A stretch of DNA of 64,000 nucleotides from Bryum argenteum. Taxonomy: Eukaryota > Streptophyta > Bryopsida > Bryales > Bryaceae. The translations under genes were made by a program, and so were the position numbers. How positions within the stretch are numbered: the first letter of the stretch is position 1; each line of letters starts with the position of its first letter. Under the pieces are notes generated by a model. That model saw only the letters and a program-made list of their open reading frames with translations. It was not told where the DNA came from and did no database searches. The stretch is from NCBI GenBank assembly GCA_037043015.1, contig CM073322.1, positions 21,232,364 to 21,296,363 on the forward strand. The letters run 5' to 3'. This document shows positions 43,228 through 53,647 of this stretch, piece after piece.

Positions 43228-43783
43228 CGTAGTATCAGTGTGCAATCGCTACATTCGTTAGATCGACATACTGTATTTCTCAACCATACTGTATTTCAGT
43301 TGAGATGTTGATTCTCCATGTTGACAGAATTTAGTGCGTCCCTAAATTGAGCTCTATCTTTGGATACATGATTTTTTCATCCCGTTTTGAGGTTGGCGAC
43401 AGACTAGCGACAGACTAGTCTCAGCCTGGTCGTGCGATTCTTCTAGGCTTCCTCTTTCACGATTTACATCTATTCCTTAGAGTCAGAAACTTCACAAGGG
43501 CAACATGTTTCTATAAGTTTCCAAACTTAGGGCCGCTTTATACTATGGACCATGAAAATTGACCATGGCCTTCTAAAATTTCTGATTCGAGAGTAAAGTG
43601 CTCTTAAGTAGTCCCATTTGGCTTCACACCACCCTCATAATCATATGCAAAATAAGCTCGCTCATACCAGGCCATCTGTCTTTCAAACTCAACACTTCCA
43701 CATTCGTTTCCATACAATACCATAATCTTGGACCAACGTTCAGAACCTCCAACTGTGCCCAATCGTATAATTTTGTACTAGAG

Positions 43784-43891
43784 AGTGGTCCGGGAGAGGC
43801 ACATTCCGGCTCCCAACGCGGCTACAGGGGAGCCCGGTAGGGCGACCCTTTGGTCGAGCTGGGAGCTAGAATGTGCCTCCCCTGGCCCACT
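43784..43891. repeat. 108-bp imperfect palindrome (foldback element)
   Basis: The left arm AGTGGTCCGGGAGAGGCACA continues to GCTCCCA. The right arm is its near-perfect inverted complement (TGGGAGCTAGAATGTGCCTC to GGCCCACT). Arms are about 32 bp around a GC-rich 40-bp loop. It is noncoding and directly abuts the TTAA-bounded element that follows. Confidence 0.8.
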
Positions 43892-43899
43892 ATCTGGCG

Positions 43900-44275
43900 T
43901 TAAGGGAGGGGGGGGCGCGTATTCTGACCGTATTCATACGTATACAAACATGGTATATGTTCTGGTTGCTTCGTTCTAGTTGCCTTATTGCAAGCGGTTC
44001 AGATGTTGACGATCATCTCTCTCCGAGAGAACACATTTTAGTCGAATGATTACAAACAATGTATTACAAAATAAAATTCCTGCTGATCTTCACATGAATT
44101 CTAGCAAGCGGACATCCAGATATCACAAGAATTTGAATACGAATACGAAATATGAATACAAAATACAAATACGTATTCAAATACAATATCAGTTGCAGAA
44201 TCTGCCCCTACGGCAGATTCAGCATCCAAATTGTGCCAATTTCCGGCAGAATGTGCCCCCCCCCCCGTCCCTTAA
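43900..44275. mobile_element. TTAA-bounded inverted-repeat element, 376 bp
   Basis: It begins TTAAGGGAGGGGGGGGCGCG and ends with the inverse CCCCCCGTCCCTTAA, with TTAA at 43900-43903 and 44272-44275. The arms extend into ATTCTG/CAGAAT. The termini differ from the CCCCTAAACGCCC family, so it is a separate type. The interior includes an A-rich run of ATACGAAATATGAATAC-like repeats. Confidence 0.5.
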
Positions 44276-45241
44276 CGTGAAGTTTGGTAGCACCAATGGA
44301 ACGTCCTCCACAATAACAACTTCCTTGTTGAGAAGTTGCAACCTTGCACCTTTACTAATACCCTTTACTATCTAAACTCCTTATTTTTGAGATCTAAGCT
44401 TCAGGTGACCGCCAAACTAAGTACAAGCACATCTTATTGAAATTCGACAAACAATGTAAGAAAATTGGATGCATCAAAAATGAAACCATAAATTGCTTAC
44501 GATTACCATTGCAATTAGTCATACTTCCATAAAATAAAGGCATATTACATACAAGTATGCACGTACAGTCAGAATTAAGGTAATATTCAATCTAAAACTT
44601 ATTTTTGCTCACACAAGCTGGAATGACGCTAAAAAAAAAAATCACCTACCCTTAGCAGTTATAACAGCTCCAATACGCTTAGGCATGCTCCTATACAAGT
44701 TCTGACACTCATTAGAGTAAGTGAAGCCCAACAATCTTCTACACGCTCCCACAATTCTAACATTCCTTTGAGAGGTCTCTCATATTGGTTTTGTCGGCGT
44801 TTTAAAGTTGCTCACAAGTGTTTGATTGGATTCAAGTTTAGATATTGCACCGGCCACTTCGAAACAACATTTTTTTTTTCAAATTCAGTCAACGACGCAC
44901 ACTCTTGGATGTATGTTTTGGGTCATTATCATGTTGAAAAATCAAATTGACATGATCCAAATTGTTTGCATAGAGCGTATGAACAGCTCTCGCTCTTAAA
45001 CTTCTCTCTACATGTAATGATCCATTCTTCCTCAATCCTACACATCATACCAAGACCACTTGAAGTCTTGCAACCCCATGTGATCACTCTGTCACCTCCA
45101 AACTTAACGGTTCCTCTACCACTCATGTACTTCTACTCTATTCACGACAAAACCAACACCAACTACCATCATCAGAGCAAAATCGGTTGATTTTTGTTTC
45201 ATTAAAGAATACTATACGATTCCAATATTCATCACTCCAAT

Positions 45242-47837
45242 CACTAGAGGAAAACAGGGTCCTCGGACACTGTTTTTAACGCTGTTTTTAACGCGGTTTA
45301 ACGTGGTTTAACGCGGACATAAAAAGTGACGCAAATAAATCGAAAATGTCACGGACGTCTTTTGAGTTTAACGTGTAGTGTTAAAGAATGTTAACGGGGA
45401 CAAATGATTTATGACGCACTGTTAAAATGACATTTTTCCAGTTGGGTAAGTTACCGAGGGTCAGTAACTTGGTAAGTAAATTACTTTCCACGTCAGCTTT
45501 TCCCGCGTTTGTACATGCCACGTGGGACAAGTTTTCATCCTTGTGATGGATGAAATTTGATCTGATGTGGCATCGGAAATCTGACGTGGCATTTAAATTT
45601 CGGTGGCTGAGATCGTGACACGTGGCCACATCCTAAAATGTGAAAGAAGTTCGGAGTTTGTGTCAAAAGAAACAGGAGATAGTGTCCACATTGACGTTGA
45701 GGAACACTTGTGTCCTCTGTTTTAACGCGATTTCCAAAACATCCTTAGAGGTTGTTTAATATTGTTAAACACAAATGTCGTTTGTTTTAACGCGTTTTGA
45801 ATGTGTCTTTAGACGTAGGGTGACATTTACGTTATCAAGTTATGTGTGAAAAGAAACAGGGCCTCGTGTCAAAGTTGACGCACTTAAACACGAATGTCAC
45901 GTGTTTTAGCGTGTTTCAAGTGAAGAGACAAGATGTAGGATGACGTTCGCCACGTCATCCATTTGACGCAACTCGATGGCAGATGTGTGCAAAAAGAAAC
46001 ATGACACAATATGACGGAAATGAAAACGTTAAAAGTGACGTTACATGACACATTCGATAACGTAAATGCAACGTCAAACATAACACACTCTGACAGAAAC
46101 ATACACGAAATGGAGTGCAACATAAATTTGGTTAGTGCTTTCGTTGTATTAGATGGAAAATTAGCCACTGGTACAAAGTTGCAAGTATTGAGTAGCATAA
46201 AGCATAAAGGCTACATATATGTGCTATGTGCTAAGGTACTCCTTGCGTTACACTACGTCAAAAGTGACGCGCTAGCGTTAAACCTGCGTCAATAGTGACG
46301 CATTCAAGTACTCTATATGATGACGTCTCTAAAAACAGTGTTTAACACAACCTATGTCACTTTTGACGGGCGCGTCACTTTTGATGCAGCAACCCTAGCC
46401 GCCGTAGAGTGACTTTCTGGGTTTCCTCATGCTTGATTTTTCTTGATCTGCACAACACACATTACCACGGACATGCTGAGTTTAATAAGGCACATCATGC
46501 AATCAAACTGTGATGGAGATCATCACGATGCAACTCTTGAACAACCTAAGAATTGCAAAAAAAGAAGACAAACTTGTAAAACTCCAACATCTCTACAACT
46601 CATACTTTAACAATCTAACATGTTACTTTCTAAAACTGTAGAACTCTAACACAAAATGTGAAGAAGAGAAATTGCAAAGAAAGAAGAAAAAACTTGTAAA
46701 ACTCCAACACCTCTACAACTCATACTTTAACAATCTAACACGTTAATCTCTAAAACTGTAGAACTCTAACACAAAATGTGTAGAAATGAAAGCAAGAGTG
46801 AGATTCTAGCTTATATTTTCCCTAAAAGTACCATGACCTAACTATGGCAGCTAACCCTAGCCGCCTCTGTTCATCCACCCCAATGAAAGTCATCCCTCTG
46901 AATGGACTAAAGTACGTTATTCTTCACATGCTTGTGTTGATGTAATCATGTCACTAGTGACACGTTCACATTATACAAGTAACATGACGTTAGTAATGAC
47001 TCGCTGGCGTTAACCATGCGTCAATAGAAACGCATACATGATGACATCTTTAGGATCAGTGTTTAACACATCCTATATCTTTTTAGACACGTGCGTCAAT
47101 TTTGACGCAGGTCAAATCCTAGCCGCCACAGGTCAAACCCTAACCCTAAAGCACAGTTTAAAATGATATATGTTACTTTTGACATTTACGTCACCATTGA
47201 CACTCTCTAGGATCATTGACCAAGTCAAACCCGAACTGCCACGTCACCCTATCATAAATGCACTTGACACGTCAACTATGTCATTACGTTTCCTTAAACA
47301 TACGGTGACACAATTGTGCGTCAAAATAAACGCCAACGTCACTATTGACATCCACGTGGGACAAAAACCAACTTGTCCTAGTCACCCCTATCCTCCAGAT
47401 AAGCCTTCCACATCACCAGAGCATTCCATGTAGGATTTATGAATATGTCAAAAGTAACACACTGAACGTCGCCCATGTCACTTTAAACGTCATCAATGTT
47501 AAAAGAAACGTGCTTACGTGGATCATGAATATATTTAATCATTTAAATATTACTAAAGGGTAAAAAATGAAGTGCTAAAGTTACCCCCCCTAGGGGCGTA
47601 CATGTCAACGTTGACGTGGTTGTGTTCGTTTTAACGCGGTTCTGTTCTTCCAAAATCCATGAGTGTTACTATGACACTCGCTGTTAAACCATAGTCAATA
47701 GTGACGGAAGTATGTTAAACCGATTAACATGCAAAAAGTCATTGTGGTCAAGTTACCCACACTAATTTTGACTAGTCTGGGTAAACGTCACTTTTGACGC
47801 GAAATAATGCGGGACAAATCACTGTTTTCCTCTAGTG
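45242..47837. mobile_element. Nonautonomous CACTA (EnSpm) element, 2596 bp
   Basis: Terminal inverted repeats CACTAGAGGAAAACAG are identical over 16 bp at both ends, and AAT is duplicated on each side (45239-45241 and 47838-47840). CACTA termini with a 3-bp duplication define the superfamily. No transposase is present (longest frame about 104 codons). The element is packed with GTGACG, TTGACGC, AACGCG and CACGTCA motifs in both orientations, as expected for subterminal transposase-binding arrays but extending over nearly the whole length. It contains a direct duplication of about 120 bp (46551-46670 and 46671-46792). Confidence 0.88.
46551..46792. repeat. Direct duplication of about 120 bp inside the CACTA element
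   Basis: Both copies contain ATTGCAAA-AAGAAG, CTTGTAAAACTCCAACA, CTCTACAACTCATACTTTAA and GTAGAACTCTAACACAAAAT. They differ by a few substitutions and small indels. Confidence 0.85.
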
Positions 47838-48350
47838 AATGGCTATGACGTCTAGCAAATTCTAATAGTCGCTTAATTTGAACTGTAAGCTTTGGTTTCT
47901 TTTGCTTTACTTGACATTTCAAACATGCTATTTGTGACACTCTCTTCACAGAATTATCGCTTAGACCAACATGAAGCTCTTCCTTCAAGTAATTTCCAAC
48001 TTAGTGTGCAGTTTCTAAGCCACCTACAGTTATTGCTCTGACACAAGCTCTATCATCAACTGTACTGTACATTTCTGATCTACCACCAAAGATTTTATTG
48101 ACATTACTCAATTCACTCAAATATTGCTTACGAAATTTTACAACCCAACTGTGGAATACTTGTTGCTCTCTAAGAACATTTCTAGTACTCTCACCCTCCT
48201 CAACTTCTCTGAAGTAGCTTCTTCTACTTGCTTTCTGTTAGCAATTGAGAGATATCTCAATGAAATCACTTTGCTCAATTTGCATACATGATGTGCACTG
48301 AATGGGGAGACATTGTACATGCGAAAGTCAAGAACATGCCCACCCAAAAG

Positions 48351-48650
48351 AGGAGACTCACAAAAGAATCCAAATGTGAGCAGAAGTGAGTTTTGGAGCT
48401 AATATATTTTTGTCTAAGAGAGTTTTGAAGCTAAATAATTTACTTCTATCTAGATCTTTCTCAAATTATATTACATTTCCGGACTTGTAAATTAGTAGCT
48501 ACATCGTATACATGCATGTATACTTGGGCCGGTAAATGATTGCATATTAAACACATCACATTATAATATATTAATGATTAAAGGTAAACTAAATCTTTCC
48601 TTACTCAATTTTGGAAGTCACTGTGTGTGCAAATATTTTCAAATTTCATC
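48351..48650. other. AT-rich spacer
   Basis: No gene or element assigned. Confidence 0.4.
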
Positions 48651-48726
48651 TTAACCCTTAAACGCACAGACCCTCTGAAAATACACTAAAAAACATGCTT
48701 GGGCATTTAAGGGCGTTTAGGGTTAA
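48651..48726. mobile_element. Minimal TTAA-flanked element, 76 bp
   Basis: It has termini TTAA|CCCTTAAACGC and GCGTTTAGGG|TTAA with only about 46 bp between them. It is the shortest member of the family seen here and ends about 170 bp downstream of the TNL stop codon. Confidence 0.6.
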
Positions 48727-48897
48727 AGCGAGCCCGACCGAAGTGAAAGCGACCCCATCTTGGGCTCCACTCACCTCCAGGACTTACTATGTAAAATTCA
48801 TCACTAATTGTACTAATTGTATCAATGCATGGGGTTCATACAGGTTCGAAGAATTCCTAGGGCCCCAATACATTGAACAGAACAAAGAAGGTGCAGA

Positions 48898-51800
48898 TTA
48901 CAATCGCAACGTCTTAGAATTGTTGCCTTCTCCCGATTGCAACGCTAAGATGTTAGCATAGGTGGCAATGACATCCATGGGATGATCTTGACTGTGATCT
49001 TCGGGGTACTCATGTAAATCTCCTGCTTCATCCATGGGATGGTCTTGACTGTGATCTTCGGGGTACTCATGTGAATCTCCAGCTTCATGACATGCCTCGC
49101 ACAAATCCACACCTTGACATACTTGGCATCGCCAGCGTCGTGATAGGATGTCGCCTTGACAGCAATCACATACATAGCTGGAGAACGGGCTCATCAGCGA
49201 CATAAACATCTGGAAACCACAAACCACAGTAAGTTTCGTACAGACCAAAACACAACATCCCCACAAATGCATTTAGAACAGAATGAAATTAGCAACCTGA
49301 TCAGGTTGATGGTCATCACGAAATTTGAAAAGTGAAAAATACTTACAGGAAGGTTCTGGAATTGCTTGCATTTCGATAATTCTACTTCGGTTTGAAGTAG
49401 GGTAAAACCTTTCGGAAGCTCTTCCAGTGCTGTATCAGATATAAGCAAAGCTCTGAGCTTCTTTAGCCTGTTCATAGAAGAAGGTAGCTTCTTAAGCAGT
49501 ACACAGCCGGACAGGTTCAACAACTCCAAGTTAGACAACTCTGAAAATAAATATGGCAACTTGGTGAGCGCATCACAACCTTCTAATGAAAGAACTTCGA
49601 GACTTCCAAGATGGCCAAAGCTCTCAGGGAGGTGCTGCAGCTGCTTGCATCTTGAAAGGTCTACTTGGGTCAGACTTTGAAGGAGGCCAAAATCCTCCGG
49701 CAGTTCTTTCACGGCAAGATCAGACATGGCCAGCACTCTGAGCTTCTTGAGCTGGCTGAAAGCGGGCAACTCTTTGAGCAACTTGCACTTAGAGAGATGC
49801 AAGTCCTCCAAGTTGGACAGCTCGGAAAATGAATCTGGCAATCTGCTCAAGCTCTCACAGCCTTCCAATGAAAGGAACTTCAGATTTTTCAAACAGCCTA
49901 AACCCTCAGGAAGATTTTTCAGCTTCTTGCATCTTCTGCAATTGATAGAGGTCAAAGTTTGAAGCAACCCAAGTTCCTGAGGAAGCTCTTTGAATGCTGT
50001 ATCAGACAGGTGCAACGTTCTCAGCTTCTTCAGCCCATTGAGAGGAGGCAACTCTTGGAGTAACATACAGTTACTAAGATCCAAGCTTTCTAACTTCGAC
50101 AACTCTGAAATTGAACATGGCAACTGAGTCAACCTTTCACAACCCTCCAACTGGAGAACTTGGAGGCTAGAAAGGCGACCAATAACCTCAGGAAGATTCT
50201 GCAATAACTTGCATTCAGAAAGTTTGACTACTGTCAGGCTTTGAAGTAGGCCGACATCCTCTGGGAGTTCTTTGACTGCCGTATCATGCAGGTCCAGAGT
50301 TTCAAGCTTCTCGAGTCCGCGGATTGAAGGAGGTAACCTCTCAAGCGATGTACACATCTCGAGAGATAAAACCTCCAAGTTAGACAGTTCCGACAGTGAG
50401 TCTGGTATAGTAGTTAGCTTGCCACAGCCGTTCAGCTTAAGAACTTGCAGGCTACTTAGGCCACCAACAGTCTGCGGAAGATTTTGCAGCAGCTTACAGT
50501 CCGATAAATGTGCCGTTGTCAACTTTCGAAGTGAGCCGAAGTCCTCTGGGAGCTCGTCTATTGCCGTATCATCCATGAGTAATACTTTCAGCTTCTTCAT
50601 CTGGCTGAGGGTAGGAGGCAACTTGTGAATCAGCGTGCACTGGGAGAGATACAGCTCCTCCAAGTTGGACAACTTCGAAAATGAATCAGGCAACCTGATC
50701 AGGCTAGCGCAACCTTTCAAGGAAAGAAACTGAAGAGTGCTAAGAGAACCAATGTTTTCCGGAAGCTTTTGCAGCAACTTGCACTCCTCAAAATCTACTT
50801 TTCTCACGTTCTGAAGTAGCCCAAAATCCTCTGGGAGCTCTTCTAAAGCCGTTTCAGCCATGAGTAAAACCTTAAGCTTCTTCAACCAGCTGATGGAAGG
50901 AGGTAACTTGTGTAGCAGTGTACATTTGAAGAGATGAAGCTCCTCTAAGTTGGACAACTCTCGAAACGAATCCGGTAACTCTTCGAGAGTAGTTTCTGAA
51001 GCTGAAAATGTGATCAAGCTTTCTAACCTCCCGAACTCTTTAGGAAGTGTTTTTAACCCAGTGCATGCTTCCACTAGCATTTCCTTTAGATTCCGCAGCT
51101 TCACGATACTTTCAGGCAGGCTCACCAGACCAACGCATCCTGACAAGTTGATGTGCTCGAGCCCCACGAGGTCACCTATTGAGTCAGGAAGAGAAGTCAA
51201 GGCTACACAACCTTCCACATTCAAATACTTCAACCTCCACAGCTTATTCATGTGTGGAGGCAACTCCTTCAGCATTATACATCCGCTAAGCATGAGCAAG
51301 CGCAACTCCTCGCAAGGAAACTGCAGCAGAACCATTAAGACGTCACAGATATATTTATGCAAGAATTGTATGGTAAAAGCTAATCGAATCGATACGTAAG
51401 GGCTGTTCCAAAATTCATCAAAAGAGCTAGATGTACTCCAACATTGAGTGATGAGCACATTGATCTCCAAGGTCAGTAACACAAAATATCCTAAGCACCA
51501 CTCAAATTGAGGCTTTACTGAATTTTCTACAACAAAAGATCCATCCTACATATTGAACTCTAAGCCGCCAGAAATTCTTTACATCAACCCTTTCTTACCT
51601 CCAGTTCAAAGTCCCGAGGCCAAACACGAGTAAGGAAGTTGCTCTGAGCAAGATCCAATACTACCAAGCTTGGTAATTCAAGAGTCAAAGGCAGTGTTTC
51701 ATGAGGAAAAAATCGCCACTGCAACCACCTTAACTCCTTTGACCACTTCGAGAAGTTCCCACTCACGGGGCAGCCATCCAACAAGAGGTACCTTAGCTCC

Positions 51801-53647
51801 TGCATGCTTGCATATCGTTCCGCTTTGCATGCCACACCAGCACATATTTGAGCTGCTGAAAATCCTAGAACTAAATCTGAGCCCTGCGCAAAGACTCAAC
51901 AGTCAAACTATGTAGCAGAATGGTTCCATCTTTTCTAATCTGGAATTTATGCTTAGAGTTGAAAAAGTACCTGTTTTTTCTGCAAGACTTTGGTCGCGAT
52001 TGCGGGGTCCCATAAGTGGCTCTTCCTCCCAAGTTTGTCGGCTCTGCCCATTTCTCGCAGGACATCGTGCATGATCAACAGTCCGTCGCTGTCCACTTTC
52101 ACCAGGGATTTATCTATCAGTCTGTACAAGGACACGCTGGGGGTTTTGCTTTGGCCGTCGAGGTCTTTGTTAGATTCCCAAATTTCGATGGCGACCCTCT
52201 TCGGGTACCTGGGAAAAAAGCAGGCGATGTCCAGAAACATGCGCTTGTCCTCCTCATTGAGCCTGTCGTAACTGATGTGGAGACTGGTCATTATGTCGCT
52301 ATTGCTTCGGAGCGAGAAAGCTGCCTCTTCCCAGCACTTCGCATCCTCCGGGAGATTCTTCTTGTCTGACAAGAATCCACCCATAACTTCCAACGCAAGC
52401 GGCAATCCACCGCAAGCGCTTGCAATGTCTTCAATGAAAGCGTGAAACGCAACATCTACAGCGTTTAAATAGTCCTTCCGAAATGCACACCGAGTGAAAA
52501 GACAGATAGAGTTCATGAGGCTGAGCTCGGGCACTTCGAAAAATGCGCTGTTTGGAACATCCTGCAAAATGCTTCTCAGGACGTTGCTATCACGGGATGT
52601 GATGAGAACGCGACTGCCTGGTGCAAGCGCGTCCAATCGCGGGATGAGCTCATCGAACTGTTTCCGAGTGGTTATGTCGTCCACTACGAGGATCACTTTC
52701 TTCCTCTGTATTCGATTGAACATGATGGTAAAGTCCCAGTGCATCTTCGTGGCGTCCACATGGAGCAGGTCGTTCACCATCTTCACTTGCAGATCCCGAA
52801 TAGCGGTGCCCTCGAATTCCTTCACGTCCTTCAGAAAGCAACGAGAGCGAAATTTGGATTGCTCTTGGTTAAAGACTTCCATAACAAGGGTCGTCTTCCC
52901 GATTCCGCCCACGCCGCAAACGCCCATGACTCCTACATTGTCTCCCATTTCTGTCAATGTATCAATAATATGAGACGATGAGTCTTTCAAACCAACCGGG
53001 TGGCGTGCTACTGGCAGAGACAATGGCGCCGGCAGCAGCTCCAACACCTTCGCTACAACCTTCTTCTCCAGCTCCGAAGAGTCACTGTCAATGGTCAAGG
53101 TTTATAATCTGATCAGTCTATTGAACACAATCGATATTGAATCAACTTTGGGGCGATACAAATGAAGAGAATGAATAAGAGGGGCATCATCTCACTTGTG
53201 AAACTCCGATAGCTTGAACCCCATGATTTCAGAAGCCTGCTGAAGAGCAACTTTCCATCTGCAGACGTCGGCATCCCGCCCTTTCTCCAAGTGCCTACTG
53301 AATGCTTCGGAAAATGGTCCGACATCAGTGCGTCGCAGATTCTCCGGTTCCACATTGTAGAACACCGGAATCAGAGGTCTCCTGCTTTCCAGCATGTCAC
53401 AGAGCTCGTTCAAGCAGTACTTAGACTCGGCATAACCTGGAGAGAAAACTGCAATGTGCACACGCACCCCAGCAAGGGCCTCGTTTATGGAGTTGAATGC
53501 GTGCTCCCCCTGTACGAGGGACTTGGCGTCCAAGAAAGGCTCTCGGCCTTCTCTTCGAAGGGCTCGATTCAGGTTCTTAACGAAGGTTTTCTTCGTGTCA
53601 GGCCCCCGGTGGTTCAAGAACACGTCATATTGTGCCAAAGTAGCCAT
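48898..53647 (-). CDS. TIR-NBS-LRR immune receptor with C-terminal ZZ-type zinc finger, 1378 residues
   Basis: Minus-strand exons: 53196-53647, 51971-53084, 51599-51883, 49347-51320, 48898-49209. All are GT-AG and phases agree (4137 bp). I place the start at ATG 53647 (MATLAQYDVFLNHRGPDTKK). TIR: residues 5-150. NB-ARC: P-loop GVGGIGKTT (about 208-216), kinase-2 KKVILVVDDI, RNBS-B GSRVLITSRD, GLPL CGGLPLALEVMGG, FLDIACFF, and MHD as IMHDVLREMG. LRRs: residues about 555-1275, arranged as roughly six larger blocks of about 94 residues. The last exon adds a zinc-binding module with Cys at about 1289, 1292, 1303, 1306, 1312 and 1315 and His at 1322-1332, matching the ZZ pattern. TNLs are intracellular pathogen sensors whose TIR is an NADase; the extra domain may be an integrated decoy. 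The ATG is only 275 bp from the MED9 stop. Confidence 0.9.
48972..49085 (-). repeat. In-frame 2 x 57-bp duplication in the ZZ exon
   Basis: Two copies, 48972-49028 and 49029-49085, encode HEYPEDHSQDHPMDEAGD-like repeats. Only about four bases differ, so the duplication is recent. It doubles the His-rich end of the ZZ module. Confidence 0.93.

Follow-up and report, generated by a model that had tools for sequence, protein, structure and literature searches.

The window analyzed here, the whole 64,000-nucleotide stretch of the Bryum argenteum genome (contig CM073322.1, positions 21,232,364 to 21,296,363), carries a TIR-NBS-LRR (TNL) receptor gene whose predicted last exon encodes a ZZ-type zinc finger of the kind found in BIG, the UBR4 homologue of plants. 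Judging from its anatomy and relationships, the gene probably encodes a receptor with an integrated bait, to which a ZZ, most likely from the plant's own BIG, was added as the last exon. Integrated domains point to host proteins under pathogen attack, and in this plant lineage a TNL with a BIG-type ZZ would single out the Arg/N-degron machinery as a target of effectors.

Table 1. Predicted structure of the ZZ-bearing TNL gene (positions in the window; a slash marks an exon boundary)
Feature	Position	Strand	Evidence
Exon 1, TIR domain	53196..53647	-	ATG at 53647; PF01582 89.7 bits; splice junctions
Exon 2, NB-ARC and winged helix	51971..53084	-	PF00931 98.1 bits, PF23282 46.9 bits; junctions
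Exon 3, NB-LRR linker	51599..51883	-	Open frame and splice sites
Exon 4, leucine-rich repeats	49347..51320	-	PF23598 235.2 bits across the LRR frame; phase-0 end at CCT/GTAAGT
Intron 4, 137 bp	49210..49346	-	GC 0.37
Exon 5, BIG-type ZZ zinc finger	48898..49209	-	103 aa and TAA; PF00569 23.2 bits
Two tandem copies of 57 bp	48975..49088	-	19 codons each, frame kept, H-x3-H stretch repeated; three differences (by eye)

The five exons join into a frame of 1378 codons with no internal stop. The first three introns measure 111, 87 and 278 bp in order from exon 1, and the last three of the four introns are in phase 0 according to the exon lengths. Pfam domains identified in the gene are TIR, NB-ARC, a Roq1-type winged helix, LRR and ZZ, and the presence of TIR, NB-ARC and LRR together in a single gene model places it among the TIR-NBS-LRR genes. 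The ZZ exon is open throughout, beginning with ATG and ending with TAA, and is preceded by the acceptor GGTTTCCAG/ATG. A preliminary description of this DNA had proposed a ZZ last exon behind this donor and a phase-0 intron of this length, and all of these elements are present. Splicing of the LRR exon to the ZZ exon is predicted by the gene model, and several observations support the position of the ZZ as the last exon of the TNL: the Pfam score, the kept zinc ligands, the splice sites and their phase, the constraint on codons, and a second set of similarly built TNLs in this genome.

The last exon scores above the curated PF00569 cut-off of 21.4 bits, by a modest margin, in agreement with its earlier assignment as a ZZ finger. 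All eight zinc ligands (C14, C17, C28, C31, C37, C40, H53 and H57 of the exon) are kept in the alignment to BIG. When the exon was searched against the 259-Mb genome, which contains TNLs, a BIG homologue and further ZZ genes, four matches were obtained at E values up to 10: the exon itself, a gene on C3 (2.6e-10), a RING plus ZZ gene (0.0056) and a p300/CBP-like gene (0.095). No second copy of this kind of ZZ was among them, the first non-self match being the C3 gene. The latter is BIG, as its frame of 627 aa gives an E value of 3.1e-211 to BIG chain 9qt9 in the PDB and its ZZ is nearly identical to that of the PDB BIG chains. We take these chains to be those of Arabidopsis. The AtUBR4/BIG wording of PMC7618180 fits this assumption. 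In the PDB the exon likewise matched the BIG ZZ best (1.5e-12), followed by KCMF1 (1.9e-6) and p62 (5.7e-6), so that the best non-self genome match and the best PDB match both identify a BIG/UBR4-type finger. The window ZZ and that of this genome's BIG are 53% identical (52% in the genome search) over 49 aligned residues, and their alignment has an equal 12-residue spacer up to H-x3-H-P-M. The finger had previously been likened to the p300/dystrophin type; the ZZ pattern itself holds, and its nearest kin is BIG/UBR4. As candidates for that kinship, p300, CBP and dystrobrevin gave weaker PDB matches (0.00095, 0.0026 and 0.015, respectively), and the ADA2-type ZZ was rejected with a ZZ_ADA2 score of 16 bits, under the cut-off of 27.5.

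Codon differences between the window ZZ and BIG number 19, 16 and 34 at the first, second and third positions, respectively, over 46 aligned codons. Third positions are saturated and first and second positions are not, which indicates constraint at the protein level on one or both of the two branches. In maximum likelihood trees the window ZZ was not joined with BIG alone and supports were low, and a topology forcing the two together was not rejected (AU 0.42). BIG is most likely the source of the window ZZ, an origin that the trees permit rather than prove. Past the finger, where the window exon carries an in-frame tandem duplication (Table 1), the tail shows weak similarity to that of BIG, 79 of 2000 shuffles being equally good. 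The window ZZ was listed neither when the genome was scanned with PF00569 (E no higher than 0.001) nor when it was scanned with a ZZ from the second set of TNLs; the finger is thus diverged, and such scans overlook diverged fingers. Within window positions 43500-49400, DNA similarity to BIG or to the 3' flanks of the C2 paralogues was limited to matches of 15-29 bases, and the boundary of an insertion was therefore not found.

The neighborhood of the gene contains transposon-like sequence. A 2596-bp element at window positions 45242-47837 has identical 16-bp inverted ends starting with CACTA and the 3-bp sequence AAT on either side. It looks like a non-autonomous CACTA transposon, and 33 of the 107 TGACG/CGTCA motifs of the window lie within it. 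The element may be nested in the remains of a minus-strand Tc1/mariner transposase (about 44600-48400), whose motifs were read by eye and are presumed to be of this family; no Pfam match was obtained for the piece at 48138-48398.

Other ZZ genes of this genome comprise the RING plus ZZ gene and p300/CBP-like and ADA2-like genes, the first being PRT1-like. In addition, a Peptidase_C78 protein (PF07910; L010, G000:C5:14118296-14121412) has a ZZ finger past its best-matching peptidase stretch. With the ZZ of one C4 locus as query, the genome yielded 33 matches at E values of 10 or below. The second set of ZZ-bearing TNLs lies at C4:14.67-14.88 Mb and C6:5.56-7.22 Mb, where a different type of ZZ forms the last exon. 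Of the 19 ZZ places compared there, 17 have a same-strand NB-ARC match 3.3-6.0 kb upstream of them, sharing 11 different NB-ARC matches, and for the other two there was no NB-ARC within 74 kb in the compared list. Five pairs with a near-full NB-ARC (four on C4 and one at C6:7.20 Mb) are unbroken across the NB-ARC and ZZ matches, the parts to which this status refers. Most of the remaining C6 ZZ places have a stop within the match, and the stop in one C4 copy falls at the exon end. By eye, a TIR-like frame was seen ahead of the NB-ARC in one C6 gene, a putative short intron with related splice sites directly before the ZZ in six copies (one donor being GC, not GT), and a phase-0 junction in the four copies whose frame was followed. 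At one C4 locus a further exon separates the LRR from the ZZ, and it has no match to any Pfam family. Pairwise dN/dS between the ZZ exons of four C4 copies, calculated for six pairs over the first 98 codons, ranges from 0.45 to 0.80, and these exons are under constraint that is only mild. The C4/C6 genes resemble the window gene in being TNLs with a short putative intron and a phase-0 ZZ last exon, whereas their ZZ is of another type with its own tail and a shorter spacing. A ZZ on TNLs therefore recurs in this genome.

When 30 of the 109 loci were placed in a tree by their NB-ARC, the window gene grouped with three TNLs on C2 and six on C8 (support 0.999), and the two C6 ZZ-TNLs included fell outside this group, as neighbors at a support of only 0.559. 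No ZZ was detected at E 0.01 behind any of the three nearest paralogues, those on C2, in the 4.9-7 kb fetched; for one of them (L055) the 3' DNA ended about 1.2 kb beyond its final LRR-like frame, which was taken as the gene end, and a ZZ might lie farther off. None was listed beside the C8 paralogues in genome searches that were non-exhaustive and scored best candidates only. The absence from close paralogues that characterizes an integrated domain was thus found for all three C2 genes, and for the C8 genes through those searches only. Two separate gains of a ZZ by TNLs of this genome are favored, with tree tests that are marginal: a tree constrained to unite the window ZZ with the C4/C6 ZZs was rejected by AU (0.0405) with 15 rows, and was rejected neither by KH and SH (both 0.064) with the same rows nor by AU (0.0965) with 12 rows. 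The results that fall short of rejection, together with the phase-0 last exon in both kinds of gene, would also suit a single ancestral ZZ exon that was lost in most of these TNLs. We consider such a history possible but rather unlikely, given the 15-row AU result, the differences in spacing and sequence type between the window and C4/C6 fingers, and the lack of a ZZ at the C2 and C8 paralogues within the scope given above.

A role of the TNL ZZ as an effector bait is plausible from these relationships. BIG belongs to the Arg/N-degron pathway. A pathogen effector would bind or modify its ZZ, and the same effector would touch the ZZ tail of the receptor too. This contact would disturb the LRR and NB-ARC parts, upon which the TIR domains would assemble and signal. 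We know of no effector acting on the ZZ of BIG. The AtUBR4/BIG ZZ has been reported to bind NRA and NRR peptides (PMC7618180). According to PMC11371152, BIG enhances the Arg/N-degron pathway and is listed as linked with the response to pathogens, stomatal immunity appearing there only in a reference title.

The peptide pocket bears on what the finger may do. According to PMC7618180, the peptides bound by the BIG ZZ have N-terminal Arg-Ala and Arg-Arg, and a serine makes a contact where KCMF1 has leucine; an earlier review still called peptide binding by the BIG ZZ open and described Asp312 and Asp336 of PRT1 as holding the alpha-amino group (PMC11668491). The equivalents of these two residues are kept in the window exon as D15 and D35, a mapping that relies on the alignment and on an equal distance of 24 residues in the PRT1-like protein of this genome. 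In the alignment, the window ZZ has Gln directly behind the second Cys, where BIG has Ser and KCMF1 has Leu, and Gly in place of the first Asp in the DFD of BIG. With the amino-group clamp kept and two pocket positions changed, an altered reader of N-termini becomes a bold alternative: the receptor itself would bind the N-terminus of a protein, such as one that a pathogen protease has exposed, and then fire. This is improbable in our estimation, as the two differences may just mean that peptide binding was lost and the residue roles come from alignment. Equally doubtful is its wider form, in which TNLs of this plant would have captured ZZ readers at least twice and the BIG ZZ, retuned in its side-chain pocket, would let the window TNL sense N-termini directly, detecting neo-N-termini made by pathogen proteases or effectors that hijack the N-degron pathway. 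The pocket pattern would fit either a bait with a kept fold and a changed pocket or a retuned reader, and on balance we lean towards the bait.

It is also quite unlikely that the ZZ ties the receptor to turnover by ubiquitin or autophagy, setting its level instead of serving recognition. The ZZs of PRT1, BIG and p62 do act in N-degron recognition for degradation, as stated in PMC11668491 and PMC7618180; however, no ubiquitin-ligase domain was found by Pfam in the five scanned pieces of the gene, and the pocket is unlike that of BIG. An arrangement in which the ZZ exon lies outside the receptor, as a separate small gene or remnant, would draw on its initial ATG and on the stop that an unspliced reading meets after the last donor (the frame ends at 49194, 50 codons on and not about 40 as first described), but is very unlikely in view of the consensus donor, usable acceptor and phase 0, an intron with lower GC than the TIR, NB, LRR and ZZ stretches (0.46-0.52), the coding constraint on the exon and the ZZ last exons on other TNLs of this genome.

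Among known systems, the integrated bait proposed here has its closest parallels in NLRs with integrated domains, such as RRS1-WRKY and those with HMA. The likeness consists of a canonical receptor to which a domain akin to a host protein is joined, and the window gene differs by having a BIG-type ZZ as that domain. A survey of integrated domains includes a BED example, BED being the only kind of zinc finger in the passages covered (PMC5067614). According to PMC11218826, zinc fingers are among the domains integrated into NLRs of non-flowering plants; its main text contains neither 'ZZ-type' nor PF00569. A BIG-type ZZ on an NLR was not found in the article text covered from the literature on ZZ or integrated NLR domains and on BIG (including PMC12787737). 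The preliminary description knew of no standard TNL architecture with ZZ, which needs qualification. In one sentence of PMC7145615, the ZZ finger PF00569 is named among the domains of Physcomitrella NLR-like genes, and PMC3419713 mentions a stretch of ZZ type in wheat Lr10; the statement holds insofar as the former names neither a TNL nor a donor. The Physcomitrella genes share with the window TNL an NB-encoding gene and PF00569; the section with that sentence gives no TNL architecture, ZZ position or donor. The closest likeness of the finger itself is to the ZZ of BIG/AtUBR4 (PDB 9lgr, 9lgs and 9qt9), with which it shares zinc ligands, spacing and H-x3-H-P-M, and from which it differs in sitting on a receptor and not on a giant ligase, in two changed pocket positions and in a 19-residue repeat past the finger.
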